From Brachycybe producta (Eukaryota; Arthropoda; Diplopoda; Playtdesmida; Andrognathidae), in NCBI GenBank assembly GCA_036925085.1, contig JAUPFP010000037.1:1446001-1510000 (forward strand): DNA of 64,000 bases, given 5' to 3'. A program made the position numbers and the translations under genes. The notes under the pieces are model-generated. The model searched no databases, was not told the DNA's origin, and worked only from the letters and a program-made list of their open reading frames with translations. Positions 6,971 to 33,556 of this stretch are shown here, one piece after another. Each line of letters opens with the position of its first letter. Position 1 is the first letter of the stretch.

Positions 6971-7010
6971 TATAAAAGCCAAAGAAAGTGCAACAGAAAA
7001 GTCAGATTGA
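6971..7010 (+). promoter_or_regulatory. Core promoter of gene A
   Basis: A good TATA box, TATAAAAG, starts at 6971. About 31 nt downstream, TCAGATT at 7002 fits an arthropod initiator. This would give a 5' leader of about 115 nt before the start codon at 7119. Confidence 0.65.
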
Positions 7011-7118
7011 AAAGTGGAAGAAATCCAAATAAGTCGGTTTCTTGGTTGGTTCTTCTTTTATATTTATTATATATTTTTTCTCAGTGGACCAAAAAAACAA
7101 AACAAAATTAGCTTCAAT

Positions 7119-9287
7119 ATGAATCCTCTTTTGGCAGTAAGTATATTGTGTATTTAAGTTTCTAGCTTTTTTTAAAAAAAAAAAGCTTAAAAGGTGGATT
7201 TATTTAAATTTGCTGCTGCTGAAGCAGTGGCTGAACATGGACTTATTTTCAGCCACCTTGTGGCACCCATAATAACCCTCCAACTATATGGACTTTTATG
7301 TCCCTCTGCCATAGGCCTATTTGGCTGCTAGCAGAGTACTAATTGTAATTGTAATTGTAAAGAGTTTCAGCTTCAGCTCAGGTTATGCAGAGAATGCTTG
7401 CAGAAGATGGCAGCACATTTCTGCTTCAGCTTGCTTAATATGCAGAGAGTGCAAGCCGAACCTCACAGCACATTTCTGATTTAACTTTTTACATATCCTC
7501 ATCTTCAGCTCATGAGTAAAATCCACCTTAATTACTAATTAATGTGCAGCAGTGCCACCTATTGACCTGAGTACATGTAATATAGAATTACATCTAATTC
7601 ATGGTTATAAAATTTTAATAATTAGCAACTGTTTAAAAAGATGCTAAATGTTTATAAAGTGGTTTGAAAAGCCACGCAATAAACATTTTTAAAACAAAAT
7701 TTTGAGTTTTTGAAAAACTTAACAATTGTTTAAAGATATGTTAAATTGCGTGTGTGGCTTTTTTTCGATCTTCCCACATAATTTTAAAACTATAACTTAA
7801 TTTTTTTTCATAAAAAATTTCTTGTTTTTCACCGGAAGTTAAGATTCGCATCAGAAATTACCATAAAATCTAGTTTTTTGTTTTCTATCTCTCTTCATTC
7901 TGGTTTTTATTTTCTTGTGGTCTTTTATAATAATTATTTCCCTATTTGATGACCTGGTTTCTTCCTGAGAAACAACTAACTAAAAACAAGGAGCTTTCCC
8001 ATATTGCTTTTGGACATAATGAAAGTAATCTTAATTCTTGTTTCATGTCTGGTAATTTTGTTTGATGCAACTGACATTTTTTTGTTGGTCGAGAGTGAAA
8101 TTTTTTAAAGATGACTACTTCACAAAAAAAATATTATAACCATGTCTAGATTGAGTAGTTGTTGTTTTAGGCATTCTACACATCGCCTAAAACAAGCATC
8201 TGTTCCGATTTGATTGTCAAAGTGGTGGCTGCTTTGCATATTGCCTAGTAATTGTTTAATATAACCAGTGATTGGTTCAGGTGTTAATTGTGAAGTAACA
8301 ATCACGTTTAGATCAACTAATAATTATGGGGTTTTTAAATCAAAAACACTGGTTAGAGGCTAGAACTCTAGTTGATAATTGATAGTAACTAGCCTCTAAA
8401 CAGCTTTTTTTGATTAGAAAAAGCATAATGCAGTTGTTCTAATGATGATCATTATAATTAATTAACAACTGGCACTTGGGCCATAAATTGAGAAACATTT
8501 GCTTGATATTGCATAAAAATCCTAGCCCCCCATGTTTAGGTTTCATTAGTTATTTGACGTTTTATCTTTTTTAAAAACAAATCTGAAGGCTTCCTTGGTA
8601 GCTGGATGTCTACTAAGTTGTGTATTCGCATTCCCATCTGGTGGTACAAATGGAGTTGAAGAATACCAGTTGACCGAAGACAGACCTACCATTGTTGCTA
8701 GTGGTGGCAACAACTTTGGATATGGAATTGGAATGGGAATTGGAGCTGTCAATGGAATTGTCAAATCGATCCTTTCAGCCGATAAGAGGGCTGAGAATTA
8801 CGCCATGTCTCGAAGTGGTGGAGGTGGCGGATACGGAGGCGGTGGTGGTGGATACGGAGGTGGTGGTAGTAGCGGCGGCAGCTCCATGGGTGGTGGACTC
8901 GTCTCTACTTTGATCAACGCCATTTCAAAACTTGCATCGAAAGGATTAGGAGTTAAACTAGGAGTTAACCTTCAGAATGAATTATACAGGGTTAAGAGTT
9001 CTGGAGATGATGATTATGGTCAGGGTGGTTATGGTGGTGGTGGAGCTAGTTATGGTGGTGGTGGAGCTAGTTATGGTGGTGGTGGAGCTAGTTATGGTGG
9101 TGGTGGAGCTAGTTATGGTGGTGGTGGAGCTAGTTATGGTGGTGGTGGAGCTAGTTATGGTGGTCAGGGAGGATATGGAGGAGGTGGTCAAGCAAGTTAT
9201 GGTGGTCAGGGTGGTTATGGAGGAGGTGGTCAAGCTAGTTATGGTGGTCAGGGAGGGTATGGAGGAGGTAGTCAAGGAGGATACTAA
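7119..9287 (+). CDS. Gene A: secreted glycine-rich structural protein, 2 exons
   Basis: Exon 1 is 7119-7136 (MNPLLA), followed by a perfect donor GTAAGTAT. Exon 2 is 8589-9287, after the acceptor TTTTTTAAAAACAAATCTGAAG. The joined protein has 238 residues. It starts with a signal peptide that probably ends at CVFA before FPSGG, so it is exported. Next come a small hydrophobic module (GYGIGMGIGAVNGIVKSIL, about residues 48-66), a dibasic KR near residue 72, a Gly-rich tract, a second hydrophobic module (LVSTLINAISKLASKGLGVK, about 105-124), and a long C-terminal repeat. The repeat has six GGGGASY units and then GGQGGYGGGGQASY units. No enzyme motif or Rebers-Riddiford domain is seen. A cuticle, silk or extracellular matrix role is inferred from composition and gene layout. 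The product family is not recognised. Confidence 0.85.
8270..8513. mobile_element. MITE-3 copy in the intron of gene A
   Basis: Read on the minus strand, it starts TGCAATATCAAGCAAATGTT and runs collinear with the element at 50798-51010. It includes a perfect 11-bp hairpin arm pair, TTAGAGGCTAG (8353-8363) and CTAGCCTCTAA (8389-8399). It ends only 75 bp before the splice acceptor of gene A. Confidence 0.65.
9028..9275 (+). repeat. Coding tandem repeats of gene A, 21-bp and 42-bp units
   Basis: Six nearly identical 21-bp units encode GGGGASY. They are followed by 42-bp units encoding GGQGGYGGGGQASY. Synonymous positions are almost unchanged between units, which points to recent expansion or conversion. 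Confidence 0.85.
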
Positions 9288-9451
9288 GAATTTAAATAAT
9301 AATAGATTTCACTGGAAAACAATAATTGAAGCTGCTTTTAATTAGTAACATTTATTACTAAAAGTGGGAAGTTTCATCAATTCTTTTTTTGATATTATTA
9401 TCAAATCTTTTCATAAATATTTCTGATTTTGACAAGTTTAATTTAAATTAA

Positions 9452-9457
9452 AATAAA
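9452..9457 (+). terminator. Poly(A) signal of gene A
   Basis: AATAAA lies 165 nt after the stop codon. No earlier canonical hexamer follows the stop. Confidence 0.55.
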
Positions 9458-9984
9458 ATTCATCAGCTGGTCAATTTGGGGGTAAAAATAGTTAATTACA
9501 TAATCACATCTCTTTGGGGGAAAAATGTATTTATTTATACAAACACTTGATTTTGGTATTCAGTCATTCACTTAAAATGTGTCTTAGGGAAGGTAAAAAG
9601 TAGATTGATATTTTTTTTTTGTATATTCTCATCAAAAGTATTCATTTTCATTATATTTAAATATGAGAATATTTAAATTTATATAAAAAAGTAATATTTC
9701 TTGTACATTATTTTTTTTTGTTTAGTCATTTCATATTTTTTTTGTTAAATATTTGACTTTTCTGTGTCCATTTTTTCTTATTTTTTAATATTGCTATTTT
9801 TTTCATTGTTTTAACATCTTCTGTGTTCTTGTTTTGTGCTCACTCTGTCTCTCTCTCTCTCTCTGTACTTTTTCTAGTTTCTATCTTTTCCATTCTTTGA
9901 AAAAAGTGCGAAAAATAAAATGTGAAAACTAATTTTTTTGTGTTTTTTCTGATATATTTAATTATAGTGGTTAATTTACAATTA

Positions 9985-10372
9985 AGTCGTGGTTTATGAA
10001 CAGCTCATTTTCGAACTAATCATTATTCTGTCTTTTATTAGCAAGAGAAACTAGAAGGGTAGCTAGCTTAATCACTTATGGGTATTTTCTTGTTGAGATC
10101 TTTTCAAAATAAAACTTTTTATAAACAAAAATTATTAAAAAAAAATATCGTTTTTATAATGTTCGGTCAATTTCAAACTGACAAAAATTTGATAAACTGA
10201 TAAAGTTTGAAAAAAACTGATAAACAGTTTATTTTGAAATAGATTAGCATGAAAATACCCTTAAGTAATTGTGCTAATCTTCTAATCTTCTAGTATCTAT
10301 AACACATTCAAGTTTTCCTTTATTTTGCGCCTGAAAGACACATTTTAAAAAGTTAAAACCACTTAAAAACTG
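9985..10372. mobile_element. MITE-1 copy 2
   Basis: Full-length inverted-repeat copy. The left inner arm GAAACTAGAAGGGTAGCTAG is mirrored on the right by TCTTCTAGTATCTATAACAC. Outer ends contain TGGTTTATG on the left and AAAACCACTTAAA on the right. Confidence 0.75.
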
Positions 10373-10985
10373 AATTTTTTTTGCGGGTCACTTACTAGTT
10401 CACAATAAACCCACCAGAAGGTGCTATTACACTTTTCAGCAGCCTTGTGAGAACAATTTATACCAAGATAAATATATAAAGGTAAAGCAACTCCACATTT
10501 GAAAAAACACGCCAAATGTGAGTGAAAAATTGTCTGTATTTTGAAGCTAGAAGGAAGTCATTTTGCACTAAGTACAGTTTGCGCCATCTATTGGCCACAC
10601 TCAGCCGTGGCATGAACTGTGTTTCCATATGAAGTGCGTTTAGTTGAGTTACCTGTTTTACATTATTTTACATATTAACTTAAACTTGTTTTCTTCTGCC
10701 ATCTGTTGGTGAACATTTTCTTTATGCGTTTTTGCACGTGACTTTTTCATTTTAAAATTATGCAAAACACTTTTCTAAATATGCAAATTTGCAAAACACT
10801 TTTCTAAATATGCAAATTTACAAAACACTTTTCTACATTATTCAAAACACTTAAAAAATTTTATGCTAAACACTTTTCTAAAGTGACAAAGAGGGTTTTA
10901 GTTGGAGGCTATCAATTTTCTTAGAGGTTATTAATTTGGTTCCCAGTCACTGCGAAGCATCGGTCGGTATACTTGGGTACTCTTT
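10373..10985. other. Intergenic with a 29-bp tandem repeat
   Basis: Between 10761 and 10885 about four units of GCAAAACACTTTTCTAAATA followed by TGCAAATTT occur, the last ones decayed. Upstream, TTTGCGCCATCTATTGG near 10568 is a phrase common in transposon debris. No gene is seen. Confidence 0.55.
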
Positions 10986-11900
10986 TAATGTAATCCCTTA
11001 ATAGGTAGCCTCCACCTTGTGACACCCTGTATTCACAGAGTTGTGGAACACCCTGTCAAAATTCCTTTCTGACAGTATGGCACCCCTTGGTGCACGGATG
11101 TCCAGACTTGGGTGGCCCAAATTTCTGTGTGAATTTGTGGCACCCAGTCAGACCGTGAAAATTGGGAAAAGAGTCCCAAAAATACTTTTCCTTTTAAGGT
11201 AGTGTTCTCAGCCTGGGGCAATGATTGGCCCTGTTGGTCAATCATTAAGCCCTGAGGTGACAGTTGCCCCTCCCAGGAGACCGAACAAGAGTGCCATGTG
11301 GCCTATGTGTGAGGACAGTTCATCAATGATTTCAAGAGTGTTCAGACCAAAACAGTCCTGGCTAAAGTAAGAGTTTTAAATAATGTAAAACAGTGTAGAC
11401 AGAATAATGTAAAGTATATCGGAGTAAAGATTATTTTATTTTACCTAAACTTGTGTAAGTGTTGTGTGTACACTAGGAGTTTCTGATGCCAATAAATCCA
11501 GGGACTACTGACAAGGGTGCTCAGACACTGTCTCAGTCCCTCTGCTTGGAGCCTCCAAGGAACCGAAAAAGGACGATAGTAGTGCCACCGGTTTTGTCAC
11601 GCCCTATACCGAAGATTCCCGAGAAGAGAAAGTCTTTTTGTGGACTTGAGAGTAGATGAACCCACTCGTGAGAGGACTCTAAAGTTCGAAATGTCGCGAG
11701 CGGTAAAAACATCCCTGGCATGCCCGCCAACAGAGTTGGCGGCACCACCGGTTCAGACTCGAAACGGGCCAAAGGGCCAGCCACGTCACAACCTTGAACG
11801 CTCGTTGTCCTACGAGATGGAATTGTTTGAAGTGGATGCAATCTTCTACCACACAAGTTTTATTAAATATTATTTACCCAGAGGTATTTCTTAGCGATTA
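10986..11900. mobile_element. GC-richer island, probable relic of a larger transposon
   Basis: This stretch is clearly richer in G and C than its surroundings. It carries frames open for about 70 (11033-11245, minus) and 107 codons (11533-11856, minus), and on the plus strand a reading that needs one frame change near 11648. No reverse transcriptase, integrase or transposase motif is recognisable. AATAAA at about 11492, followed by a segment like the end of a terminal repeat, makes a broken retroelement plausible, but I cannot assign a class. A lost host exon is the alternative. Confidence 0.35.
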
Positions 11901-11962
11901 TTTTTTACTCACTTTTATTTAACTTCATAATTTGTGAAATATTTGAAAATAACTGACACTGC

Positions 11963-12012
11963 AAGGGATTGAACTATGGGCTGAGACACTATCCACTACA
12001 CCAACAAGACAA
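11963..12012 (-). pseudogene. tRNA-like fragment (Pol III box A and B)
   Basis: On the minus strand, TGGTGTAGTGG matches the tRNA box A and AGTTCAATCCC is a good box B. The gap between them is only 17 nt, too short for an intact tRNA, and no acceptor stem pairs. It is therefore a deleted tRNA pseudogene or the head of a tRNA-derived SINE. Confidence 0.45.
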
Positions 12013-12039
12013 GAGGGGGGATTGTATTTAGTTTTGTTT

Positions 12040-12960
12040 TTACTTTTTTTTTGGGGCTTATAAAAGCGAGTATCACAAATTTTTTTAATTTAATTTTAGT
12101 TTAATTTTCTTGTTTGAAAATAAATCATTATAACGATTATTTTTAATCAAATCCTATAATCAAATCCATGAGATTGATTAATTATTTTATAATGGTTTCA
12201 GGTGTAAATACATAATTTATATTTTAACTTGCTTTCTTTTTTTTAAAAAAAAAAAGTAAAATCAGGATAAAAATAACTTAATTAAAAATAATTTGCATTA
12301 TCCAGGAAAAGAAGTTTTTTTTATCTTCTTCCGTTATCTGTTTTTTTTTTGTTTTTGTTGTTTTTACTCTTATAATAATGGAAGTAAAAACTTGATTAAC
12401 TACAAAAGAAAACATCTTAAATAGTTTTCTTCATCATCATAATATAATATAATATACATGTATATATTAACCTAAAGTAGGTCTTTGTTTTTTGGTAAGC
12501 AACTTTGATTGGTTCTTTGACAAATATATCAAGTCGTAAACGATTGTTTTAATTGTTGCTTTATTTGTTGGTTTATCTATTGTCTTGTGTTGTTACTTTA
12601 GTGTTTATGTTTATGCGGATGTGATCGTTACAGTACACCCTTAAATAGCTACGGTGTAACACTTCATTTTAAAAAAAGTAACCGAGAAAAATCTGTGTCA
12701 CATTTGCATTATTATTATTATTATATCAAGTGTTATTTTAAAGTGTGGCCGGCCAACAATTTCTCCTTCTTCTTAATGTAATTTGTTTTATAGCCAAACA
12801 ACACTTGGGATTAAATTAAAAATTATTTCAAGTACTCTTTGTGTCCATCTTTAGTGGTAGTGACGTCACTTACGGGTCATTTTATTTGGTGCACATTTCT
12901 TATTTGCACTTTTTTTGTTGTTTGAAAAGTATTTTTTTTACTTGTATAATATATAGTATA
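12040..12960. other. Upstream region of gene B
   Basis: AT-rich DNA with ATT trinucleotide and TA runs. TGACGTCA at about 12862 is a perfect CRE/ATF-type palindrome about 100 bp ahead of the TATA box. Whether it is used is unknown. No gene is seen. Confidence 0.45.
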
Positions 12961-12967
12961 TATATAG

Positions 12968-13002
12968 TATAAAAATATAGTTCGTTCGGCTTGTTACAGA
13001 TT
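12968..13002 (+). promoter_or_regulatory. Core promoter of gene B
   Basis: TATAAAAATA starts at 12968. About 30 nt downstream lies ACAGATTTT (12996-13004), similar to the TCAGATT start of gene A. The 5' leader to 13173 would be about 175 nt. Confidence 0.55.
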
Positions 13003-13172
13003 TTGTCTCATTCTGTTCAAGTCAGTCTACTGGGTCAGACCTACTACACCTTCACCTCTTTCTCTTTATTTTTTTTTGTGTGTGTAATTTGGTTTCAAAT
13101 GATTTAATTCGGAACAGAATTGAATTTACTAGAAGTTAGCTCTCAAGATTGCAAGGAGGAATTTGCATCAGA

Positions 13173-16100
13173 ATGTTTGTCACGGTGAGTTTCTAATCAT
13201 ATTTGATGGAATTTGCATAAAGGTCTTTGATTGAACAGTCACAATTATGAATATTTATTGATAGTTATATTCAAAAATTGATTTTTCTGGATGCAAATTA
13301 GGTTACTTAAAGGCCAACTATGTGATTATCATAACTACAGTATATATATTGTTTGGCGTGGGCTAAACTTTGAAGGCACTGCTGGTCAGAAAATTATTGA
13401 AAGTAAAATTTAAGTTTTTGGCTTCGAGGTTTTTGATTTTTTTTTTGTGAATTAACTGTTTGTCCTATTTTCGAATTTATTAGGTACAAATTAGGAATTT
13501 TTCAGGTTTTAAAAAAAGTAGTCTGTAACACATTTGGCTTTTTAACGACCTGACAAATGGTTAATTCTTATTAAATAAGACTTGAATTTAAAAGTCAATT
13601 TCAATATTTGTGACTGAGTCAAAATTTGTTGCATTGCATATAAATTTTAAAATTTAGCTCTGTTCAAACTAAAATTTAATAGAATTGTTTAATTTCAACA
13701 ATTTCAAGTATATTGCACAAAGCGAACGGTTCAACATTTTGGTGTTATTTTATATTATGTTCAGGAAAACATAAATAAAAATAATACACTTTATTTTTTA
13801 GGGAGTATTATTGTTGAAATTAAACAAATTCTATTAATTTTTTTCAATTCCAGTCAACTATTATTCTTTCTGGAAGTTTTCAATATTTGTAACTGAATAA
13901 ATCAGAAGCTTTGTTATTTTTTGCATTGCTTAAATTTTAAAATTTAGCAGCAAAACTAAAATTTCTAAAATAGAAAATAATTACTAGAATTGTTTAATTT
14001 CAACGATTTTAAGTATTGCACAAATAGTAAGATCAATACAATAATGTGCAATATGGTTTAACTTTTCGATGTTATTTTGCATCATCTTTAGAAAACTATA
14101 AAAATATAGTAATTTTAGGAACAATGATCGTAGAAATTCAACAATCGTATAATTTTTTATGTGAATTCCAGTCAACTATTATTTCTTAAATAAAATTTGG
14201 AACTTTGTTTGATTTCAGGCGGTGATTGTAACCTGTTTGTCGTTATATTCGTGTATTTTTGCCAACGGATATGCGCCGAAATCATACAGTTACAACAGTG
14301 GAGGCAGATACTACAATGATCCATATCGAAGACTGGACACTTTTCGTTCATTGGATGGTAAATTTGGTTATAGATATCAATATGGTGATCGGAACAGTAA
14401 CGTCCAAGTCAGCTTCACTTCGACACCGACATACCCCCAACGGAAGCAGAAAAATGGCTACGATCAAAATATCGCCTCATCCAACAATCAACAATACACT
14501 TCAAAACCAGCAGGTTATGTGACAACAACTACGAGCCAATTGACATCGAAAGCAATTCCGGTATACATTCCAAGCACTACAAACGTTCCGTACGTTGATT
14601 CGGTACCGGCATATTCAAATGCAGCTTCTTCGCCAGTCGTTCCTTTCGAAAAGGCTAAACAATACAGTGTAGGTGGCCATAAGCATAGTACTGGTACTTA
14701 TAAGGTGCCGGCATATCCAGTACTCGATACTAAGTATTTGAAGTATGAAAATCCCAATGACGAAACCTCGTCGTTTCGACATTTGTACGATTATCATCCC
14801 GATACTTATCGTTACGCACATCCCGAGAAAATTGTACCCTTGAATGTTTTTGGACTGCCGCCGAAACACCGATTCCAACATCCCATTGGTAATGTCGAGA
14901 GTTCGCCACCTGTTGTTGTTCATACGAATGCTTATTTGCCAGGACCTGTCGTTGACAGTGGTGTCACGAAAGGTAGCGGACATCACGAAGATGGCAATAA
15001 ATTTCATCGTCTTTACGAATATCATCCAGGTACTCGTCAATTAGTAAATCCAGAGAGAAACACTCCATTGAATGTGTTCGGATTACCACCGAGGTATCGT
15101 TATCAGAGCCCTTATGGTAACGTCAACGGCTTTCGTCCTCAGGAAGTAGCTTCCAATGCAAATTTGCCAGGACCTGTTGTGGATGTTACTCTTCGAAGGC
15201 CTAATTTAAGTTCTTCATTTTCGGGACGTGTTCCAACTACGGGTGGTAGGTCAACTGTCGGAGGCGATTATGGCTCGCAGTCACAAGTTAATATACAACA
15301 AACAGCACTTCGTAATGATTATAATGATAAGAAACCAATAGAAGGTTATGTCGTCAAGGGAAATGACCAAACTTATGGACACTCGATGACTGCACCATCA
15401 CAAAAAAGCCAGTATTATTCATATACCAACTCAAATGACTACGGAAATACTCCAAATAAATATAATGGTCAGCAACAACAACAGCAGGTAGCTTACCGTG
15501 GTCAACAACAACAGCCATATAATAATGAACAAAAACAACAATATAATAACAAACAGCAATCTCATTATGGTGGTCAGCAACAACCAACTTATGGTCAACA
15601 ACAACAACCCTCCTATGGCCAACAACAACTCTTACATAGTGGTCAACAACAACCCTCATATGATCGACAACAAGTCTCTTATAGGGTTCAACATCGACCC
15701 TCATATATTGGTCAGCAACAGCTCTCGTATAATGGTCAACAACAACCGTCATCTGGTCGGCAACAAATGTCATACAGTGGTCAACACCGACCCTCGTATA
15801 ATAGCCAGCAACAACCCTCATATGGTGGTCAGCAACAGCCCTCATATGGTGGTCAGCAACAATCTTTGTATAATGGTCAACAACGGCCCTCATATGGTGG
15901 TCAGCAACAGCCCTCATATGGTGGTCAGCAACAACCCTCATATGGTGGTCAGCAACAACCCTCATATGGTGGTCAACAACAGCCTTCGTATAGTCTTCAA
16001 CGACAGCCTTCGTATAGCGGTCAGCAGCAGCCCTCGTATAATGGTCAGCAAAAAACTACTTATGTCAACAAGCAGCATACTGCATATAATAATCAACAGC

Positions 16101-17905
16101 TTAACGGTGGACAACAGCCCTCCTATTCTGGTCAGCCGGGGTCCACAAATAGTGGTCAGCAGCATTCTTACGGTGACCAGAAGCAGCCAGTTAAGATTAC
16201 TCCAGTTTCGAGTGATTACACATCTTCGATCAAACCTGCTTATGGTGGTCAGCAAAGCTTCACATATGGTGGTCAGCAAGCCTCCACATATGGTGGTCAA
16301 CAGCAGTCGGCATACAATAATCAACAGCAGTTGCTTTACAGTAGTCAGCAGCAACAAATCGTTAAATCTCAGCAGTCGAGTGATTACGCATCTTCCATCA
16401 GACAAAGCGTTTCTCAAAGGCCTTATGCAAAATACTCGCAAGGACCAATAAGATATGGAAATTCGAATGGACCTCATAAAAACACATATCCTTTGCAATC
16501 AATTTCTACCAAAGACCAATATTACGGCCACTCTACAATAAATTCTCACTATAGGAATATTGCGAGCCATTACAACCCACCCCAGTATAGTGAATTTCAA
16601 CAGAATTATAATAAACATACCAGCTATAGCTATGACAAACCTGATGAACAATACAAGACTGTCGTTGGAGTCCAACGACCATCTACGAACAAGTATAGTC
16701 TCGATGGTTATTACGACAGCGTTTACGGACAAGAGAATCCAAGATATAATAGCTACAGTTATTATAAACCTGCCGAACAATACAAAACTGTCAATGTTCA
16801 ACAACTTTCTAACAATAACTATCAACCGGAATATGTTCGTAGTCATCAGTATTTCAGTCGTGCTGGTCAATATAACGAAATGCCGACTGTAAATAATTAC
16901 AACAATGCTGAATATCAACAAAGGCTGCATGGTCCACAGCATGGTTTCGCAAGCATTTCTTCTCCAATGAGTGGCGTCCAAAGAGGTTACGACTCTTTAG
17001 TTGGATATCCACCTAAACCAGTGGACAATTATGAAAATTATGAGGCTCTTAATCAACGTATTTCAGGACCATTGTTTAGCTTAAGAAGTGAACAGCAACG
17101 AGAGTTTGGTGGTAACGGTGCAGGTATGCTGACGAATAAGCTTATTTATCAACGTCCTCCGTTAGATTACAGCATGATTTCTTCATCACCGTTGAAGGAA
17201 TCGAGACGATACGATCGAAGTCTGGACGAGTTGTTCGGAAAGGAGAATAGTAGAATTAAATATGACACTATAAGCAGGCAAGATAATTTTACAAATGTAA
17301 AACTTGCAACTAAACCAACTAGTTTAACTAGCAAACTCAATGATACAACAGCAACAACAACAACAACTGCAAAAACAGCATCATTACCATCAACAGCAAC
17401 AACTAAGAAAGTTGCTCCACTAACTAACACAACAGCAACAGTAACAACAGCAGTTGATCCAGTTTTACTTACAAACCTCCAGTCTAATCCTGACTCATTT
17501 CTGTTCTATAATCCTGGTTCCAATGACCAATTGTATCTTCCATCTGTAACACAATCATCATATTATGACGTTTTATCCAGAATAAACAATAGACGTTATG
17601 GTTATAATAGAGGTTATGGTAATCGAGGCAACCGTGGTTATAGGAATAGTTATTATAGTAATCGTGATTATGGTAATTATAATCGAGGTTATGGCTATGA
17701 TGATTATGATAAGCCAAGGCCGAGTTTGCTGAGCTTGCTTTTTCCGAAAGTAGTTAAAATTGGTTTAGGTCTTGGTTTAACCAAGGAGTTTGAACTAGTT
17801 AAAGAACATGGAAGAGGTGGTTATTACAGTTATAACGAGCCCCAGAACGGTTTTCAATTAAAACTTGGTATGGGTCCGTTTTTTGAGAAAAAGGTGTTAT
17901 TTTAA
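13173..17905 (+). CDS. Gene B: modular 1232-residue secreted Gln/Tyr/Gly-rich protein
   Basis: Exon 1 is 13173-13184 (MFVT, donor GTGAGT). Exon 2 is 14219-17905, after the acceptor TTTGATTTCAG. The signal peptide probably ends at SCIFA before NGYAPK. Then, in order: a short stretch with DGKFGYRYQYGD (about residues 50-61) that loosely recalls a chitin-binding Rebers-Riddiford core; two copies of a 65-70 residue module (about 184-250 and 260-327) sharing YHP, NVFGLPP and LPGPVVD; a Gln/Tyr array of GGQQQPSY type (about 420-715); a duplicated SYSYxKPxEQYKTV motif (about 804-870); a Thr-rich tract that could be O-glycosylated; an RGYG-rich tract; and a C-terminal hydrophobic module (SLLSLLFPKVVKIGLGLGL, then FELVKEH). 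No enzyme motif is seen. An extracellular, cross-linkable structural protein of cuticle, adhesive or silk is inferred. The family is not recognised. Confidence 0.85.
15466..16350 (+). repeat. QQQPSYGG coding repeat array in gene B
   Basis: About 30 units of 24 nt, mostly CAACAACCCTCATATGGTGG-like, encode QQQPSYGG and variants (QHRPSYxx, QQLSYxG). The central units (about 15820-15975) are nearly identical and the edges have drifted, as in an array that grows from the middle. The frame is kept throughout. Confidence 0.85.
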
Positions 17906-17938
17906 CATTGGATTTGTAACATGTGTTAAATGAAAGTA

Positions 17939-17944: not shown

Positions 17945-17962
17945 TATCTTGCTCGCACCTTA

Positions 17963-21710: not shown

Positions 21711-21715
21711 CTCTC

Positions 21716-21750
21716 TATATAAGCTTCACGTTTTTCGAGAAATCTTTCAA
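21716..21750 (+). promoter_or_regulatory. Core promoter of gene C
   Basis: TATATAAG at 21716-21723 is followed after about 30 nt by TTTCAAAAT (21745-21753). A start there gives a short leader of about 57 nt to the ATG at 21804. Confidence 0.55.
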
Positions 21751-21803: not shown

Positions 21804-23142
21804 ATGAAGTTTCGAGTGAGTAGATTATTTTATTGTTGTTTTCAAGATGGTTTATAAATAGGTGATTTTCGAATTCTGCACAAAATTAAGAGAAATTAAG
21901 AAAGTGTTTTAGAAACTAGAAGGGTAGCTCAATTACTTAATGATATTTTCATATTTTGATGTCGTTCAAAATAAATATAAATAAATTTTCTCGAAACTGC
22001 TGTTACGGGAAGAGACCTCCTATAGAACATAAATGGCCACTGCAGTGGCATCATCTGGAGGGGTGAAAACAAAAAAAAATATTTCTCTTCAGTCACCTTA
22101 ATTGTTTGAGCTACCCTTCTAGTCTCTAAAACACATTCATGTTTCTCTTCATTTTGCACCTGTAAAACGGAATATATTCAAAATTCGAGAGAAGTTTGCA
22201 TTTAAAAACCACCTTAAAGCATATGTATACCTACATACCTACATATTTTATTATTTATTAACTGAGGCGGTGATTGTTTTTGCTGGATTGGTCGTTTCAA
22301 TGCAAATCTTCTTTGGAGATGCCACGTTATCAATGCTAATGGATCTTGGTAGAAGCAGATCAGGAATCATTTCCAGTAGGAGTTACAACAGTAAAGGAAG
22401 TTACAGTTCAAAGACAGATTACGGTGGAGGGGGTTACTATGTCGCACCTATTACAACAACTACCCAGGCACCAACGCTAGGATCTGCTATTGGAAAAACT
22501 ATTGATGGTGTTAAGGCACTTAAGGGTATGATTGTGAAACCGGTATTAGCTTTAATTGGTGGTCTGTTAAGCAAACTAGCTGCACCTCCACCAGCACCTC
22601 CACCTCCTCCACCACCAAGTTATTCACCACCTCCACCACCCAGCTATTCACCACCTTCACCACCACCACCACCACCACCAACTTATCTACCACCATCACC
22701 AAGTTATCCACCGATTTATTCATCAGATTATGAACCGAGTTATGCTCCAGCTGCAGTAACTTACAATGAACCACGGATGTATAGTAATGGTGACACTGGT
22801 TATTACACCAATGGAATGAGCTATGCAAAAACAAGTTATGACAATGCAGCAGCTAGCAGTAGACTTATTAGTAGTAGTAGCAGTAGACCTACATTTTCTG
22901 CTGCGACTACTACTACTAGTAGTAGCAGTAGTAGTATTCCTGTTAACTATTATAGTTCGAGCACATACACTAGTAATATCAACAAAATTGACAACAATTT
23001 ACATGGTGATATTGGTGACAATTATGACATGGGTCTTCCAATATACAATTCTCACCCTGATAAAGTTATCCTAAATGGTATTGGTTTGAATAAGAATGTT
23101 GAAATACGGTGGCCTTCTAAAAAGACAGTTTCTTATTATTGA
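21804..23142 (+). CDS. Gene C: secreted Pro/Ser/Tyr-rich protein, 295 residues
   Basis: Exon 1 is 21804-21815 (MKFR, donor GTGAGTAG). Exon 2 is 22267-23142, after the acceptor TTATTTATTAACTGAG. The joined N-terminus MKFRAVIVFAGLVV... is a signal peptide, probably cleaved after about residue 23 (FFGDA). A Gly/Ser/Tyr linker follows, then a hydrophobic module (LGSAIGKTIDGVKALKGMIV, then LALIGGLLSKLA, about residues 72-108). Next come a Pro-rich tract with PPPPSYSPP motifs (109-155), a Ser/Thr-rich tract (about 195-232) and a C-terminus with ILNGIGLNKNVEIRW. The hydrophobic block and the GIGL/EI ending recall genes A and B. No catalytic motif is seen. An extracellular structural role is inferred. 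ATTAAA at 23145 or AATAAA near 23639 could serve for 3'-end formation. Confidence 0.8.
21860..22217. mobile_element. MITE-1 copy 5, filling the intron of gene C
   Basis: Well-preserved arms: GTGTTTTAGAAACTAGAAGG (about 21905) and GCTACCCTTCTAGTCTCTAA (about 22112). The outer right end is TTTAAAAACCACCTTAAA. The element covers about 358 of the 451 intron bases. A different piece lies in its loop (about 21985-22070). Confidence 0.8.
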
Positions 23143-23150
23143 AATTAAAT

Positions 23151-26550: not shown

Positions 26551-26559
26551 AAATGTACC

Positions 26560-26705
26560 CGTGCTTGGCCACAGGCAAGTGTGCTCGGCACAATACAATC
26601 GTTTGCCCTGCTCTTTTATGAGGAACGGAAACTTCTAATTGGTTTGTTAGTTTTTCTGACGACATCACATGCCCCGCCCTCGTGTTGCGATTGCAACACT
26701 CCATG
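26560..26705. mobile_element. Decayed MITE-4 copy 3
   Basis: CACAGGCAAGTGTGC and the inner GAACGGAAACTTCTAATTGG match the left arm of MITE-4. The right arm is reduced to GCCCCGCCCTCGTGTTGCG. It is diverged and incomplete. Confidence 0.5.
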
Positions 26706-26855
26706 CTATGTATGGGAGCAAAGTTCAAAAATAATGTAATCACCTTGACGATCACTTTGGTGACTGAAGATAAAAAACTTTTTAATTAGTTTGATTATAA
26801 AATTTATTAAATGGAAAGCCTGAGCCATAATATGTTTCTTTTATTTTATTTGCAG

Positions 26856-28401
26856 ATTTCGAACAAAAGATGATTGGTGAAATTGAAAGCAAACTTGGAG
26901 GAATGTTGATGATGATTCTGTACAAAAATGAAGGCGGTATTATAGGTAATATTTGATGCATGGTTCTGAATCATATTTTAGAAAAAAAAGTTGCATCCAA
27001 AAGGGGTGAATGAACGCAATGGGGAAAATTTGACTGTACTGGAGACCTAAATTGAAATGGAGTGAAATGAGGGAGAGATAAGGTCCACGACCTCAAATTT
27101 TAAAACCCCTTTCACTTCCTTAAGAAGAACTGTGTTTCTCTTGAATCTCTTCTGGTGGGCCACAAATAGTTACTCTTGTTAATCCAACACAACACTGAAA
27201 AATAACAAAAACAAAACATTTTTTTTTTGCTCCATGTTTTATAAACCCGTTTGAAAGTAATAAGCCTGTTTTGTTAAAAAGCATTTCAGACGCTTTGTTT
27301 GCCATCCAGTCTTGTTCTATTTATATGATGGTTCTATAGACACAGCCCACACTAGCACAGACACAGCACCATTCTAAACACAACTTTTGTTTTTCATTTT
27401 TGCTCAACCCAAACTATATACCATTTGTCAATTTAATTTTACTGGTTGTTATTTAAATCAGCCACCCTTTTCTGTCAAGTAGGCGTGTTTGACGTTTAAT
27501 TTCAACAGGTGTTTATAACAATGAAACTTCAAAAACGTATATTGCAAGTGAACCGGAAAAGCGTCAACGGAGAGTTTTTGCTACAATCAGTTCTCTGTGA
27601 AGTTAACAAAGTCAGAAATGTCTTCATTTCCGTTGCGCAGTGCCAGATTCGAGAGTTACGATCACGCTAATGCAATGTGTGAGTCGTGTTTTGGGTTTTC
27701 AACAATTGCATGCAACAATGCTACTAAAAAAATTTGTTATATGTGAACCGGAAGAGTGTCAGTGGAGAACTTGGGTGCAAAACGTTCTCAGTAAAGTTTT
27801 CAAGACAGCAATGTTTTAATTTCCTATGAGAGTTTTCCGATTCGGAAGTTATGCTAGTAAAAGCTAGGTGTTTTCGTAAGATCGTAACTTGTAGTTTCAC
27901 ACTTCGATCTTGTCAATGAATTTATGTTTTCGTTTTTATGTTTCTTCTAGATCTCAGTATGGGTATTTTGTTGATCCAACTTTCTGTATCAATGTGACGC
28001 ATTGCAAGCAAAGACGCGGAGGTAAGTATGGAATTTTGCAAATATATGGCTTTAGGGCAAATTTCCCTTTAGGGCAAGTGTCTTTAGGGCAAATGTCTCA
28101 CACCCATTTGTATTTTTAATGAATGATATAGGATTCTTATATGAAGGATTCGAGAAATTCGTGAGATTCGAGGGATTCGAGAACCTTTTAGGATTCGGAT
28201 TCGAGAAAAAAAAAGTTTTATTGTACAGGTGGTTTTATTTATGCAATGGATGGTTGCGAGAGTCTTAGCATGAATTGTGACTTGGTCGAGCATTACAACA
28301 AACACGAGAATCTATGGACAAAAATTACACCTGCAGGAATGCTGAAAAAAGCTGCCAATGCGGTAGCACTCGATGGTAAAGCTCGATTCGAGCCTCATTA
28401 A
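26856..28401 (+). pseudogene. Kelch-repeat protein fragment, three exon-like blocks
   Basis: Three blocks have good splice borders: 26856-26945 (acceptor TTTATTTGCAG, donor GTAATA), 27951-28021 (acceptor TTTCTTCTAG, donor GTAAGTATG) and 28229 onward (acceptor TTTATTGTACAG), open to a stop at 28399-28401. Blocks 2 and 3 join in phase and read ...QRRGGGFIYAMDG..., then NCDLVEHYNKHENLWTKI, then GMLKKAANAVALDGK. This follows the Kelch pattern (G-hIYAhGG, S-VE-Y, N-W, AhhhLDGK). Block 1 is open (DFEQKMIGEIESKLGGML) but does not join block 2 in phase. I see no BTB or BACK part and no other blades, and one expected GG is DG. It is most likely a broken copy of a Kelch-like gene, or possibly a small diverged gene. 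Confidence 0.5.
27514..27865. repeat. Diverged tandem duplication of about 190 bp
   Basis: 27514-27670 and 27702-27865 align along their length. Shared blocks include GTGAACCGGAA, then GAG or AAG, then GTCA, and CAGTTCTCTGTGAAG against CGTTCTCAGTAAAG. The origin is unknown. It lies in the gap between two Kelch-fragment blocks. Confidence 0.55.
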
Positions 28402-28417
28402 CAGTTAGTATGGTGGC

Positions 28418-28530
28418 ACTGAATAAGCACCTCATTGAACAAACGCCAAAGTGAATAAAAGCGAAAAATTTGGTGGTAGTTCAGTTTGGCTTTTGTTCAA
28501 TTTGGCATTTATTCAGTCCCTCACTATGAT
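28418..28530. mobile_element. MITE-8 copy 2 (GCCAAA motifs)
   Basis: CACTGAATAA and TGAACAAACGCCAAA on the left are mirrored by TTTGGCTTTTGTTCAATTTGG and TTATTCAGTCCC on the right. It is related to 3696-3850. Confidence 0.6.
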
Positions 28531-28788
28531 AATGACATATTTTTGAGAATAAGGCTTAAAAGCATTTATAAGAAATTTCTTTTACAAATTTTTAAATGCT
28601 ACGCTCACTGAAAATAATTTTATTAGCCATTTGCACAACATTTGAAAACTTTAATGGATAAAAACATCTATTTCAAAGTTGGTAGTGTGTGCACGCCATA
28701 TAACACTCAAAACACCACTACATATGAATGACCTGTGGCGCCACAGTTAAGGTGGCTTTATAAATATTTATTTTGCTTTTGGAACCAA

Positions 28789-28790
28789 CC

Positions 28791-28821
<31 letters not shown>

Positions 28822-28828
28822 ACACACA
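28789..28828. repeat. C19 homopolymer followed by (AC)n
   Basis: A run of 19 C (28789-28807) is followed directly by about ten AC repeats up to 28828. Confidence 0.9.
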
Positions 28829-28849
28829 ATTGTAGTTGACTCTTTATTT

Positions 28850-29090
28850 GAAAGTTCTTTTCTCATGGTCAGTTGTCACTCATCTAAGGGAAGCTAACGA
28901 CAATTTTACGTTCAGGAAGAACAGTCGAACACGTAGGTGAATAGCGAGAGCGAGAGAGACAGTGATGAAGTCACTGTAGGAAGAAAAATACGTTATTTAA
29001 ATTCGTTATTATTTCCCAGCTTCATTTTTGTAAGTGTTTCGAGTTCAGCTGCAAAATAATAATCTACTGTATAAATTGAGGTAATTGTTT
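28850..29090. other. Intergenic, no gene seen
   Basis: Moderately AT-rich sequence with a GAGA stretch near 28945-28965. On the minus strand a possible acceptor (TTTCTTCCTACAG near 28977) exists, but I could not build an exon from it. Confidence 0.4.
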
Positions 29091-29093
29091 AGT

Positions 29094-29393
29094 TTAGTTT
29101 GTGTTCGAACTTAGGATGCAAACGAAAGGATGAAATATATGCCGCACTTTTCGTAACAAATTGAGTCTCTCAATGGGTGAAAGGACGATATCGTGGATGT
29201 TTTGTAAAGGATCGTAAGCGATGGCAGCTGGATTAGCTGAATAAGCAATGACGTACGTAACAGCCGCCAGTCGACCGCATTGAGGAATCACGAATGCAGG
29301 AATAGAGAATGCGAGACGCAGGAATGGAGCTATCAGGACAAACCACAAGAATCTTTTGATCGAGCGATGAAAAATACAGGTAATAAAGTTCGT
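29094..29393 (-). pseudogene. Membrane-protein-like terminal exon, family uncertain
   Basis: The frame is open from 29393 down to a stop at 29094-29096, about 99 codons, with balanced codon use unlike the AT-rich noise around it. It has no in-frame ATG at its head, so it would be an internal or last exon; AAAAG before 29352 is a possible acceptor. The product is hydrophobic at first (FLWFVLIAPFLRLAFSIPAF), then has CGRLAAVTYVIAY, then SANPAAIAYDPLQN, and ends in a basic stretch (RLNLLRKVRHIFHPF). The order P, GR, a hydrophobic helix, then a small-residue/P/N motif is reminiscent of the N-terminal membrane region of DC-STAMP/sneaky-type proteins, but the match is only suggestive. A partner-like, broken copy lies near 30346-30500. 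I treat it as a gene fragment. Confidence 0.35.
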
Positions 29394-29846
29394 TCATCAA
29401 AAGATCAGTTAAACAGAAATTGTACGTTTAAGGAATGTTGTGTGGATTGATTGAAAGCAGGTGTAAGGTTTTGAAATCCTTTAGCTTTGTAGAAACAACT
29501 TTGAAAAGAAATTCAAAGTTCGAATTTGAAACTAGGAAAGTACAGAAATTTCAGAATGGTATTTTAGGTTTTTGATTTGTAATTGGTCTACTTAAAAGGA
29601 AGAAACAAAAATTGTCTTTTTAAAAACTTCAGTAAAATATTCTTAGAATACGAGTGAATATATTTCGATTCGAAAATACCAATATTATTTTATATTGTTT
29701 ACTATTATAGTTTCGAATAAATTTTATTTCCTTTTTTTTAGAATTGTCACGCAATGTGCGCAAAGTATTCTTCTTCTAACACTATCCTCTGCACTTTTCT
29801 TGACAAATCAAGTTTCCCAACAGCCTAGACACTCCAGAGTTTGACG

Positions 29847-29974
29847 TACCATGAGACGTGGTCGACTTTCCGTATCATGAGTCGTGGTCGACTTTCTGTA
29901 CCATGAGACGTGCTTGACTTTGCCGTTTCAAAGTTGCTGAAGCTGCTGTAGCAACCAACCTACACTTTGAAACG
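29847..29974. repeat. Three 26-bp tandem units next to an 11-bp-arm hairpin
   Basis: Units start at 29847, 29873 and 29899 (TACCATGAGACGTGGTCGAC, then TTTCCG, with small changes). Immediately after, CGTTTCAAAGT (29924-29934) is mirrored by ACTTTGAAACG (29964-29974) around a 29-nt loop. An inner GTTGCT/AGCAAC pair lengthens the stem. Confidence 0.8.
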
Positions 29975-30345
29975 TCATGAAATTACCTTAATACCCGAAG
30001 AACATGTTGCTGAATGGACATAATTTTTCTTAAAGCTCAAAGATCGTTCAGAAGAACTTACAGGTGTTCGGAAAAATGGCCCTTTTTATGGTCAATGGCC
30101 TTTAACGTGGGCCAAACAAATTAGCATAATTCAAAAAGGCGTCAATTTAAAACCCCTTTGAATATTATAATAAATAAAGCTGAATACCTGGCCACAAAAT
30201 TCAAGAAGGGATTGAAAATTCGTTTATTTTTCAAAAACTCAGAGAAAAAGATCGAGAGTCGAGGCCATGTTTTTGTTCACGTCCAATTTCACTTAACATT
30301 GCGTCTATGGAGACACAAAGTACGTATCGGCTGGAGTGTCTAGGC

Positions 30346-30520
30346 TTTTAACGATGGCTCGTGAGATGCAAATGTATTGGCCGAAGAGTTGGCTGATGTA
30401 GCAGTCGTCACGAAACACATCCAGTAGCGGCAATGATCAAAATAGGAAATGACGTTTGCTCATTATAAGATCAAGCGGACAGATTACGAAGAATGTTGTT
30501 GAACTGATGAGCTTATTGTA
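30346..30520 (-). pseudogene. Probable decayed duplicate of the 29.1-29.4 kb exon
   Basis: On the minus strand one frame reads VTTATSANSSANTFASHEPS before a stop, similar in order to YVIAYSANPAAIA in the better preserved exon. The flank also recurs: AGATCA, then ACAGA, then GAATGTTGT, is found near 29401-29440 and 30466-30500. Drift is heavy, and similarity by chance is possible. Confidence 0.3.
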
Positions 30521-32424
30521 GAATTAAGAAAAGTGCGTTATATCTATTAACTCATTTATTTTTTTTTCCATAAAATTTAGCCGTTTCTATGGAGTGCAGA
30601 ATTGTGATTGGATTTGCCATTATCTGTTGGAAGGACAGGGTTAAAAAGAAAAGCGAATTTGGTCATAACGTCGTTAAAAGGAAGTATTGACGCCGAGAAC
30701 TTGCTTGGAGCTTGCTCAAAAAAGGTGAACAAATCCTGGTATAAATTTTAAAATACTAAATTCCGTGTCGTCTTCTTCTTCTTCTTGATTCGTAATTAGT
30801 GTCTTGACTGCCGTAATGACTCGTTTCCCTATATGATGAAAATACCTACAAATATTCCTCTTGAGTCGTTAATAAAATCACTATCAGTCTTTCTGTATGA
30901 AAAGAATTTTTTTTGGGCAATTGACGTCAACAATAACATTAATAAATTAAGAAAGTCCAATATTACATTGTAGATCTTTGGGAGCCGGGAGAATGAGACA
31001 CGGTATTGCTTTGGACAGTGTATGACACTCTTCTCTTAACTTTAAAACTCATTTTCTCAAAAAAGTGTTTTTTTGAGTTGTGCCATTCTTCTAGCCGAGG
31101 TGTGATATATGTTATAGCAAAAATTAAAATACAATTTGCAAAGCTACATTGGTTACACTTCTGGCTCAGAATTTAGATGTTCCGGTTTGTTCCGGTTTGG
31201 TTGGAGTTCTTGTTTATTTATTTTATCAATTTGTGTTTGAGCAGTTAGATTAAGGATGGGGATCTGTTATATAATCTCAAATTGTCAAATCCATTGAAGG
31301 ATCTTAGTTACCCTCGTTACCCTAGTTACTCCTTGTTACAAATAATTTTAAACTTGTGCACAATTGTTGGAAAAAATACTTAAAACATTTTGTGCTGTAT
31401 GTAGAACGTTAACGTTTTGCATGCATGCAGTAAAAAGAAAAAAATACAATATGTAAATGGGGCGTTGACAATGGGTTCTAATGCTAGTTAGCAATTGTTA
31501 ATGTGAACTGGTCCTTTGTAATGATTTGGCACAGTGCAGGATTTTCTTCACAATGCTAAGCTTGTTTCAGCAAATAAATTAAACCATTGTTGAAAGAAAA
31601 TAGTTTTAATTGAGGAAATTCTTTGTATTCTATATAATGGACGTTTAATATTGTATATCCTTGTCAAGTTAAGACACTGCAGAATTAGTTCATTCTGTCG
31701 AATATATTCAATGGCGGATTGCTGAGTTTGTTTGTTGCAACTATGAGAATGGTGGGAGTGTAATGAAAGGCTTTCAGAGTACGGTTGGGACAGTTTACTT
31801 GCAAAGCAGTCAAGTTTTAGTCTTTAACATTTTAAGCAGACGATTGCAGGCTCTTGTCCTAAACCAACTTATTTAGGAATGATCACTGTGGTAATATTTA
31901 GAGATTTAAATATAAATTTCAAAATCTTAAATTTCGTAAATTTTAATTTAAATTCAGAGAGATTTTTGCACCACCAGGTTTTTATTACTAGTCATTTGTT
32001 CATAATGTTGTTCGATACTTATGCAACTCACTTGAAAGAGGATTTTGCGCATGAAAATCATATTGTTTTATGTAGCTCCTAATTTCCTGACAATGCATTA
32101 TTTCAGCTGCACCATAACACATTGCAATGGTTGTTGGATTTTGAGTTTTGGTAATGCAGTTAGCATGCTACGATTAGGCTCTTGTTCCTTTGTCATAGGT
32201 CTTCTTGACTTTGACTGTTTGCGTAATAATTTTCCATATTTAAATTCAAGTTAGTTTTCTAATATACGACGTGTCTTGAAAATATTATTTTTTTTTTCTT
32301 ATTGGAGTCATATATTTTGTGGAGACTGTTTTTCGATCTCGGTGATTTAAATTGGCTGTTGTGTATTTGTAGTTTTTTCTTGAAGTTGAATATATGTAAT
32401 AAGAAACAATTTGGACACAAGAGG
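30521..32424. other. Intergenic, no gene seen
   Basis: AT-rich sequence with a TTC trinucleotide run at about 30771-30786. Short open frames lack signal peptides, splice context or coding character. Confidence 0.55.
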
Positions 32425-32613
32425 CTACTGTATAACATAAACAATTTATTTTTATTGAACACTTGTGAATTTTATTATAAATATACATATAAATAATGAA
32501 TGATTTAAAAATAATGACATTAATTATCATAGATGATGTGACAAAAGATACCATAATGTCCTCGAACCCACTACTGTAGTTTGGTTTATCCAATTCTGGT
32601 CTTCTAGTCTATG
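32425..32613 (-). other. Inferred 3'UTR exon of gene D with poly(A) signals
   Basis: On the minus strand an excellent acceptor, GTTTTGTGTTCTGTTTTAG, ends at 32614. Two AATAAA hexamers follow at 32456-32451 and 32450-32445. Paired with the donor GTGAGTA just after the stop codon of gene D, this makes a 3'UTR intron of 474 nt (32614-33087). The stop would lie only 7 nt before the junction, so nonsense-mediated decay would not be expected. Confidence 0.55.
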
Positions 32614-32670
32614 CTAAAACAGAACACAAAACAATAGAAATTTTAATTTTACATTAACGTAGTTATATGC

Positions 32671-33063
32671 AAGGCCAAAACTTTTAAGCAAATAAAAAAA
32701 TTTTAAAAGAAATTTTACGTTTTATACAAATAGGCAATTTTTTTAAAACCTTGACTGTCAAATATGCAAAAAAAAAATTGTTCATTTTATGCAAATAAAT
32801 AATGCATATAATTTAGCAAAACCATAAGTAACTGAAGAAATTTATAACCATGATTATTATTATATGTAATAATAGAAAAATGCAAAGTAAAACAATTAGG
32901 TCTAAGAAACCCTTTGTAGATTTTTTTTGAAGGATTAATTGAAATTATGCGACTTTATGCAAATTTAAAAAAAAATATTTTTAAATTTATGTATTTTTTC
33001 GTTAAACATTACACAAAGGGGTTACAAACTATCATTATGGCATTGTGCAAATTTTTGGCCTTA
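32671..33063. mobile_element. MITE-7 inside the inferred 3'UTR intron of gene D
   Basis: The ends AAGGCCAAAACTTTTAAGCA and TTGTGCAAATTTTTGGCCTT are inverse of each other. The body is rich in ATGCAAAT-like words. GTTAT occurs close to both ends. It fills about 393 of the 474 intron bases. Confidence 0.6.
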
Positions 33064-33094
33064 GTTATTTGAAATTTGTTTACTCACAAAATAT

Positions 33095-33435
33095 TTAATA
33101 ATATCCTCCTCCATATCCACCACCACCACCTCCCATTCCGTAACCGCCTCCGTATCCACCTCCGTAGCCACCTCCATATCCGCCACCACCACCATATCCT
33201 CCTCCATAAGATGGATAATATTGTGGAATGGAAATAACTATAATTCGGTTCTTCTTTTTCGTTGGATCAGGATCTGGCATTGGAAAGGCTAAAGATGATA
33301 CAACAAATAGAACTACCAAAAGAGCAACCAACATCTAATGCAAAAAAAAAAATATATATATATAAAAAATTTGTTAGAATGAAACAAAATGAAACATTGA
33401 TTATTGTCACTTACTGTCATTGTTTTGTTTGCCAT
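33095..33435 (-). CDS. Gene D: small secreted Gly/Tyr-rich protein, 86 residues
   Basis: Exon 1 is 33435-33415 (MANKTMT, donor GTAAGTG). Exon 2 is 33334-33095, after an acceptor in a T-run (TTTTGCATTAG). The intron is only 80 nt. The joined protein has a strong signal peptide (MLVALLVVLFVVSSLA, cleavage probably before FPMP), a charged linker (DPDPTKKKNR), a short hydrophobic strand (IIVISIPQYYPS), then GGGYGG-type repeats ending GGGYY. Short Gly/Tyr-rich secreted proteins of this kind occur in arthropod cuticle and also as antimicrobial peptides. I favour a structural role from the tandem GYGG repeats and its similarity in layout to genes A to C, but it shares no long motif with them. The first ATG was chosen for its better context (ACACAATGG). 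Confidence 0.85.
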
Positions 33436-33519
33436 TGTGTTATTGTCCACTTGGAAGAAATACAATGAAGAAATATCTTGTGTATTGTTGTCTTGTTTAA
33501 CTGTTAAAACAGTATTTGA

Positions 33520-33556
33520 ATTGTATTGAGTAGTGAAAATTGTGGGGTTTATATAT
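33520..33556 (-). promoter_or_regulatory. Core promoter of gene D
   Basis: On the minus strand TATATAAA runs 33555-33548. About 30 nt downstream CTCAATAC (near 33531-33524) is a possible start, giving a leader of about 90 nt. Confidence 0.55.

Follow-up and report, generated by a model that had tools for sequence, protein, structure and literature searches.

Four genes, here called A, B, C and D, lie in a 64,000-nucleotide stretch of the genome of Brachycybe producta (Diplopoda), positions 1446001-1510000 of contig JAUPFP010000037.1 (C37), which we refer to as the window. Judged from their sequences, these genes probably code for secreted structural proteins of low complexity that belong to the arthropod cuticle or to a closely related extracellular matrix, and they lie within one cluster of 16 candidates that spans about 195 kb. 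The genome comprises 295.3 Mb in 442 contigs, with C37 making up 0.76% of the assembly, and the window has a G+C content of 30.4%.

Gene models and their support

An earlier note on this DNA had given each of the four genes a TATA promoter, a first exon of 4-7 codons, a signal peptide split by a phase-0 intron, and one large low-complexity exon. We rebuilt the four models from the DNA, with predicted splice junctions and with signal peptides called from visual inspection and a hydropathy score. The rebuilt models agree on the exon and intron anatomy. First exons have 6, 4, 4 and 7 codons in A, B, C and D and all are followed by GTRAGT donors, the introns are all of phase 0 and fall within the predicted signal peptide, and a single large low-complexity exon follows. 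The description of the four genes as secreted, low-complexity, clustered and of one common architecture is likewise supported. The features are, in window positions:

6971..6977, + strand: TATA box of A, CTATAAAAG, 148 bases before the ATG, strict consensus
7119..7136, + strand: A exon 1 coding (ATG at 7119), MNPLLA, donor GTAAGT
8589..9287, + strand: A exon 2 including the stop, Gly/Ser/Tyr-rich (37% Gly), GGGGASY repeats, weak acceptor; product 238 amino acids
8734..8755, + strand: MGIGAVNG block in A, resembling the GLGLGAxKG blocks of two upstream cluster genes
9028..9164, + strand: 21-base tandem repeat, 6.5 copies with 100% matches, GGGGASY units of A
12968..12974, + strand: TATA box of B, GTATAAAAA, 205 bases before the ATG
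13173..13184, + strand: B exon 1 coding (ATG at 13173), MFVT, donor GTGAGT
14219..17905, + strand: B exon 2, 1228 codons and stop, Gln/Ser/Tyr-rich, QQQPSYGG repeats at about 15561-16051; product 1232 amino acids
14762..15187, + strand: stretch of B in which a non-repetitive domain is duplicated (copies FRHLYDYHPDT... and FHRLYEYHPGT...)
21716..21722, + strand: TATA box of C, CTATATAAG, 88 bases before the ATG
21804..21815, + strand: C exon 1 coding (ATG at 21804), MKFR, donor GTGAGT
22267..23142, + strand: C exon 2, Ser/Pro/Tyr-rich, hydrophobic block followed by PPPPSYSPP repeats; product 295 amino acids
33095..33334, - strand: D exon 2, 79 amino acids, PMPDPDP followed by GGGYGG repeats; product 86 amino acids
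33415..33435, - strand: D exon 1 coding (ATG at 33435), MANKTMT, donor GTAAGT
33549..33555, - strand: TATA-like element of D, loose consensus only, 120 bases before the ATG

The differing repeat chemistry noted earlier (GGGGASY in A, QQQPSYGG in B, PPPPSYSPP in C and GGGYGG in D) was found in the models, and the overall compositions differ. Glycine accounts for 37.0% of A and for 31.4% of D, which also contains 13% Tyr; B has 12% Gln, 11% Ser, 10% Tyr and 8.8% Gly, and C has 16% Ser, 14% Pro and 7.8% Gly. The 21-base array of A may reflect a recent expansion or an assembly effect.

A strict TATA consensus, [CG]TATA[AT]A[AT][AG], precedes A, B and C by no more than 260 bases, compared with 256 of 5078 plus-strand ATGs in the region (5.0%; 30-260 bases upstream). 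A strict TATA box is thus present in three of the four genes, while the element of D fits only the loose consensus TATA[AT]A, found before 1870 of the same 5078 ATGs (37%). Short first exons are common by chance: of 500 random AGs, 115 had an ATG exon of 3-10 codons with a GTRAG donor within 2 kb, and an exon 1 by itself is therefore weak evidence. An AATAAA lies 165 (A), 34 (B), 361 (C) and 619 (D) bases beyond the stop, distances that carry little information in DNA so rich in A and T. The weak point of model A is its acceptor, which is pyrimidine-poor (0.29); a rival AG just before 8550 is in frame and gives a poorer signal peptide by eye. At the level of sequence, A-D look like real genes with predicted junctions.

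Among A-D, protein-level constraint was tested in B. Between 18 repeat units of B, chosen with a regular expression, the divergence is 0.60 per synonymous and 0.19 per nonsynonymous site, uncorrected, and between the two copies of its duplicated domain it is 0.77 per synonymous versus 0.24 per nonsynonymous site over 41 codons. Given that the divergence is mostly synonymous, it is very likely that B codes for protein and is constrained at that level.

Comparison with cuticle genes of the same genome

A short first exon followed by a phase-0 intron within the signal peptide is described for insect cuticle genes (PMC1626468, PMC2259329). In Anopheles CPR genes the signal peptide is interrupted in 86% of intron-bearing genes, first exons measure 3-36 nucleotides with a median and mode of 12, and TATAAA is found in 126 of 153 (PMC2259329). 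A profile search of the B. producta genome for the R&R domain (PF00379) gave at least 33 matches, and we took the best 12 of 33 as loci for an architecture test in which first exons were not sought. The R&R exon starts at a phase-0 acceptor inside the signal peptide in eight of these 12 loci (L032, L033, L034, L036, L038, L039, L040 and L042), with a nearby phase-2 acceptor as a possible alternative in L033 and L040. L035, another of the 12, is an R&R protein with a tail of GGSYGG repeats that resembles gene A.

Taken together, the published insect layout and the eight R&R loci of this genome identify the layout of A-D as a cuticle-gene layout. The earlier note knew of no named family with this combined set; that the architecture is of no known kind is not supported, the layout being documented for cuticular proteins (PMC1626468, PMC2259329).

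A cluster of 16 candidates

We added 100 kb on each side of the window, giving a 264-kb region (C37:1346001-1610000), and ran a detector that looks for an AG acceptor, a phase-0 remainder of a signal peptide and a low-complexity tail rich in Gly, Tyr, Pro or Gln. The detector found 16 open reading frames (ORFs) including A-D, spanning about 195 kb. The reversed sequence gave one candidate, and 20 local dinucleotide shuffles gave one in all (none in 19 of the 20). The thresholds had been set with A-D in view, so that 12 of the 16 finds are independent. The candidates are:

C37, - strand: 1363547, 1372493, 1479334 (D), 1516373, 1522805, 1525513, 1529480, 1556319, 1558808
C37, + strand: 1404896, 1422313 (E), 1435924 (F), 1454589 (A), 1460219 (B), 1468267 (C), 1510886

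Outside the 16, at least four secreted-looking ORFs were picked out by eye at C37:1360329 (-), 1369161 (+), 1442604 (+) and 1520494 (-). The set of four genes is thus incomplete, and A-D are part of the 16-candidate cluster.

Exon-1 candidates of the other cluster genes were listed solely where a TATA lay upstream. A strict TATA was found for eight of the 12 cluster ATGs checked, a count that provides no independent evidence outside A-D because of this preselection; that of 1422313 lies merely 21 bases before the ATG.

These data bear on the view that some of the models are not genes at all, being open repetitive DNA flanked by chance splice sites. D is short, the acceptor of A is weak, exon-1-like pieces precede random AGs at the rate given above, and one pair of recent duplicates in the cluster, 1525513 and 1529480, differs by four synonymous and seven nonsynonymous changes in 44 codons (0.12 versus 0.07 per site), with no strong constraint. 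We nevertheless regard this view as highly improbable, given the near-empty detector controls, the strict TATA boxes of A, B and C, and the frame of B, which stays open for some 1230 codons with synonymous-biased repeat divergence.

Sub-kinds and kinship within the cluster

By eye the cluster contains two kinds of gene. A long plus-strand kind, from 1404896 to C, has hydrophobic blocks between or beside its repeats. A short minus-strand kind (D, 1525513, 1529480, 1556319 and 1558808) has a signal peptide, an Asp/Pro stretch in most members and a GYG tail, with an exon 2 of 74-123 codons. The duplicates 1525513 and 1529480 have an identical first exon, MVCKVL. This grouping leaves 1363547, 1372493, 1510886, 1516373 and 1522805 unassigned. 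There is weak evidence that D fits this short kind better than it fits A-C, namely a likeness in length, layout and an MPDPDP match with 1558808 that was equalled by four of 100 shuffles.

The hydrophobic blocks of E, F and A align as GLGLGAxKG in four segments that we chose, and C has a weaker piece in common with E. A DNA pattern written from E, F and A (hG-hG-A-h-(K/N)-G) gave six matches in 295 Mb and one in a backward control. The three matches in the cluster are there by design, as the pattern was derived from these genes, and the informative part is that just three others were found in 295 Mb:

C1:495597, + strand: GLGLGAxKG site outside the cluster, DNA pattern search
C1:506402, + strand: GLGLGAxKG site outside the cluster, DNA pattern search
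C32:1090759, + strand: GLGLGAxKG site outside the cluster, DNA pattern search

The C1 sites are separated by 10.8 kb, share a strand and are perhaps a second small cluster. A genome-wide protein search with the E block recovered gene E alone (with a second place in E at an E-value of 0.2) and missed A, F and the C1 sites. The kinship of E, F and A through this block is therefore suggestive, not proven.

Pairwise comparison of the non-repeat parts of A-D gave weak scores. Three pairs had at most 10 of 200 shuffles scoring as high, namely the middle of A with the C-terminus of B (2/200), the C-terminus of B with the N-terminus of C (3/200) and the N-terminus of B with the C-terminus of C (4/200), the last two being compositional. 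When all 16 genes were compared after masking, which covered the GLGLG block of A, five of the 120 pairs had none of 100 shuffles as high; among these, E/F and E/C match in hydrophobic blocks and E/B is a Thr-rich match. Given the weak scores, a single gene family for A-D is not supported, and A-D are probably not one family. Nor is there support for treating the four genes as a unit: they are four of 16 candidates over about 195 kb, A has a block in common with E and F, and D resembles the downstream GYG genes.

Repeat scarcity, domain searches and alternative functions

A GYGGYGG-coding pattern gave 37 matches in 295 Mb and one in a backward control. C37 holds 19 of the 37, all in three genes of the cluster, and merging of matches within 1 kb leaves ten places, three of them in the cluster. 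At C73:122921-123132 (-) GYGGYGG units form a regular array at a spacing of 24 bases, and R&R cuticle matches lie 22 kb away on that contig. Genome searches with the non-repeat part of A and with the B domain (14762-15187) returned only self-matches, C and D not being searched in this way. None of A, B and C matched a Pfam family, and a Protein Data Bank search with the N-terminal 327 amino acids of B gave no match at E <= 1. D scores 41.3 bits against the Pfam GRP family (PF07172; cut-off 30), a match that may be compositional, as the D-like genes 1558808 and 1529480 give 14.2 bits and no match. An Rfam scan of the window gave no match.

Several observations weigh against a cuticular role. 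Pfam (E <= 1) found neither PF00379 nor another cuticle domain in any of the four genes, B being represented by its exon 2. None of the at least 33 R&R matches listed lies on C37, and the cluster is therefore apart from the R&R clusters. The remaining four of the 12 R&R loci (L035, L037, L041 and L043) do not show a phase-0 signal-peptide acceptor, and the GYGGYGG pattern occurs at seven places on other contigs. Finally, low-complexity composition is common also to silks, glues and some antimicrobial peptides.

The earlier note had suggested that A-D could be parts of one extracellular material such as cuticle, adhesive or silk. That they contribute to an extracellular material is plausible, with cuticle among the options, but silk and adhesive, although possible, are without specific support. 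On the latter account the cluster would supply the components of a silk, adhesive or cement that a dedicated gland makes for spinning or gluing, with each repeat type having its own mechanical role. GGY, QQQPSY and PPPPSY chemistry is of the kind seen in silks and cements, the genes are clustered with strongly diverged repeats, and the identical 21-base units of A may mean recent repeat expansion. Pfam includes silk domain models, however, and no silk domain was found among the Pfam matches of A-D. The products, at 86-1232 amino acids, are small for fibroins, which are usually larger. Moreover, the intron has the same position as in the eight R&R loci, and L035, an R&R protein, carries GGSYGG tails too. 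Hence we consider such a gland product unlikely.

A second account would divide the cluster, taking D and the downstream GYG genes for antimicrobial or wound-response peptides and A-C for matrix proteins. The D-type genes are short and clustered and have a predicted signal peptide, mostly an Asp/Pro stretch, and a GYG tail, and the NLP/caenacin genes of Caenorhabditis elegans are reportedly clustered and GYG-rich as well. The diversification of C. elegans antimicrobial peptides is treated in PMC2453101. The likeness to nematode peptides is by description only, whereas the intron architecture is that of cuticle genes and GGY repeats are described for cuticle CPG proteins too; we hold the antimicrobial account to be very unlikely. 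The preferred reading remains that of secreted structural proteins of the cuticle or a related matrix.

A possible route from the cluster to the cuticle

If A-D are cuticle or matrix proteins, epidermal cells would transcribe each gene from a promoter of its own, which in A, B and C at any rate is of the TATA type. The one phase-0 intron within the signal peptide would be spliced out. The secreted chains, mostly disordered and rich in Gly/Tyr, Gln/Tyr or Pro/Tyr, would then mix with chitin-bound R&R proteins and become cross-linked via their tyrosines, with the Gln-rich B possibly also cross-linked by transglutaminase. The differing repeat chemistries may set local stiffness, hydration and adhesion, and the genes of the cluster would be co-regulated. 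Cross-linking of secreted GGY proteins in the cuticle is a published proposal for silkworm CPG1 (PMC12426002). Drosophila cuticle proteins are cross-linked by transglutaminase, and the introduction of the same paper mentions cross-linked caraxin from a horseshoe crab (PMC2956697).

Transglutaminase domains were found on C37 by Pfam:

C37:1350666-1350998, + strand: transglutaminase N domain (PF00868)
C37:1357620-1357937, + strand: transglutaminase C domain (PF00927)
C37:1301246-1301569, - strand: transglutaminase core (PF01841), one of only two PF01841 matches found genome-wide (the second is on C8)

An ORF between the N and C domains, which we read as the core, has no Pfam match. All of these domains lie to the left of the cluster, a position that was noticed post hoc and proves nothing on function.

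Neighbouring sequences and other observations

Short open pieces at window positions 26856-28400 (+), one reading GGFIYAMDGCESLSMNCDLVEHYNKHENLWTKI, look to us like presumed remains of a Kelch-type gene; the two pieces scanned had no Pfam match, and a Kelch identity is not supported. From 33600 to 64000, visual inspection of ORFs of at least 60 amino acids revealed no convincing gene, although genes with short exons could escape such a search. About 62 kb to the right of the window, at C37:1571638-1609911 (+; L028-L031), there are two tandem groups of Ig and FnIII-like exons (e.g. PPKIVPFSFQ...). We take these tandem exons, at 1571-1609 kb, to be Dscam-like, and Pfam finds an Ig domain in one tandem Ig exon at 1571-1607 kb. 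In Chelicerata, sDscam genes are described whose 5' cassettes are arranged in tandem (PMC4835542, PMC5775551).

Contig C442 (15,359 bases, 18.8% G+C) is mitochondrial and has long frames in the invertebrate code, which together with the R&R genes marks the animal as an arthropod. Its gene order is rearranged: nad4L-nad4-nad5 lie on the cox1 strand, and near 4.8 and 10.8 kb there are similar ORFs that point in opposite directions. The order differs from the orders given for Strigamia maritima (PMC4368715) and Nymphon gracile (PMC1636051) in those sources. On C442 cox2 directly follows cox1, trnL2 not lying between them; trnL2 in that place is described as a derived state of hexapods and crustaceans (PMC1636051), though this gene can move, and by this character the animal is probably not a pancrustacean. 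Long cox1-like stretches at C1:12697416 and C17:4027703-4029047 are probably nuclear copies.

Comparison with known systems

Beyond the earlier picture of four genes there is a larger cluster with sub-kinds and with transglutaminase neighbours; the layout itself is already known. In the parts of the literature cited, cuticle-protein families are insect-based and are named by conserved regions. A dense cluster of domain-free, repeat-only genes such as this one, in an arthropod outside the insects and crustaceans, would escape domain searches, and a search by architecture, namely a signal-peptide intron and a low-complexity last exon, could find it, as here. If the neighbouring transglutaminases act on the products, the locus would make it possible to test directly how a single genomic block gives rise to an exoskeleton material.

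A-D resemble the CPR genes in their short first exon, phase-0 signal-peptide intron, TATA promoter and tandem clustering (PMC2259329, PMC1626468), and differ from them in having no R&R chitin-binding domain. With the insect low-complexity cuticular proteins (CPLC, CPG and 'unclassified low-complexity') they have Gly- or Pro-rich low complexity in common. CPG repeats are GXGX or GGXG (PMC12426002), as are repeats in A and D, and these are not the main repeat of B or C. CPLCG is described as exclusive to Diptera and CPG is described for Lepidoptera, in an account of these groups for insects (PMC12426002); A-D are likened to the CPLC groups by composition and not by their conserved regions. Tick glycine-rich proteins are defined by 20% glycine (PMC11772090), a level that A (37.0%) and D (31.4%) exceed, whereas B (8.8%) and C (7.8%) fall below it.

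The most distant comparison is with the vertebrate epidermal differentiation complex, where clustered two-exon genes encode barrier proteins rich in Gly/Tyr, Gln or Pro that are cross-linked by transglutaminase. The C37 cluster is like it in its clustered repeat-rich genes and in the transglutaminase domains that adjoin it on the left. Cornified-envelope proteins are made inside the cell, whereas the cluster products have predicted signal peptides, and we claim no homology. That the locus is a convergent arthropod counterpart, with at least 16 fast-diverging signal-peptide-intron genes whose secreted barrier products are rich in Gly/Tyr, Gln and Pro, co-regulated over about 200 kb, served by their own adjoining cross-linking transglutaminases and using a GLGLGAxKG assembly block rare elsewhere in the genome, is an idea we put forward as distinctly unlikely. 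On the best reading of these comparisons, from which we infer tissue and function, A-D are unclassified low-complexity proteins of cuticle type or of the extracellular matrix.

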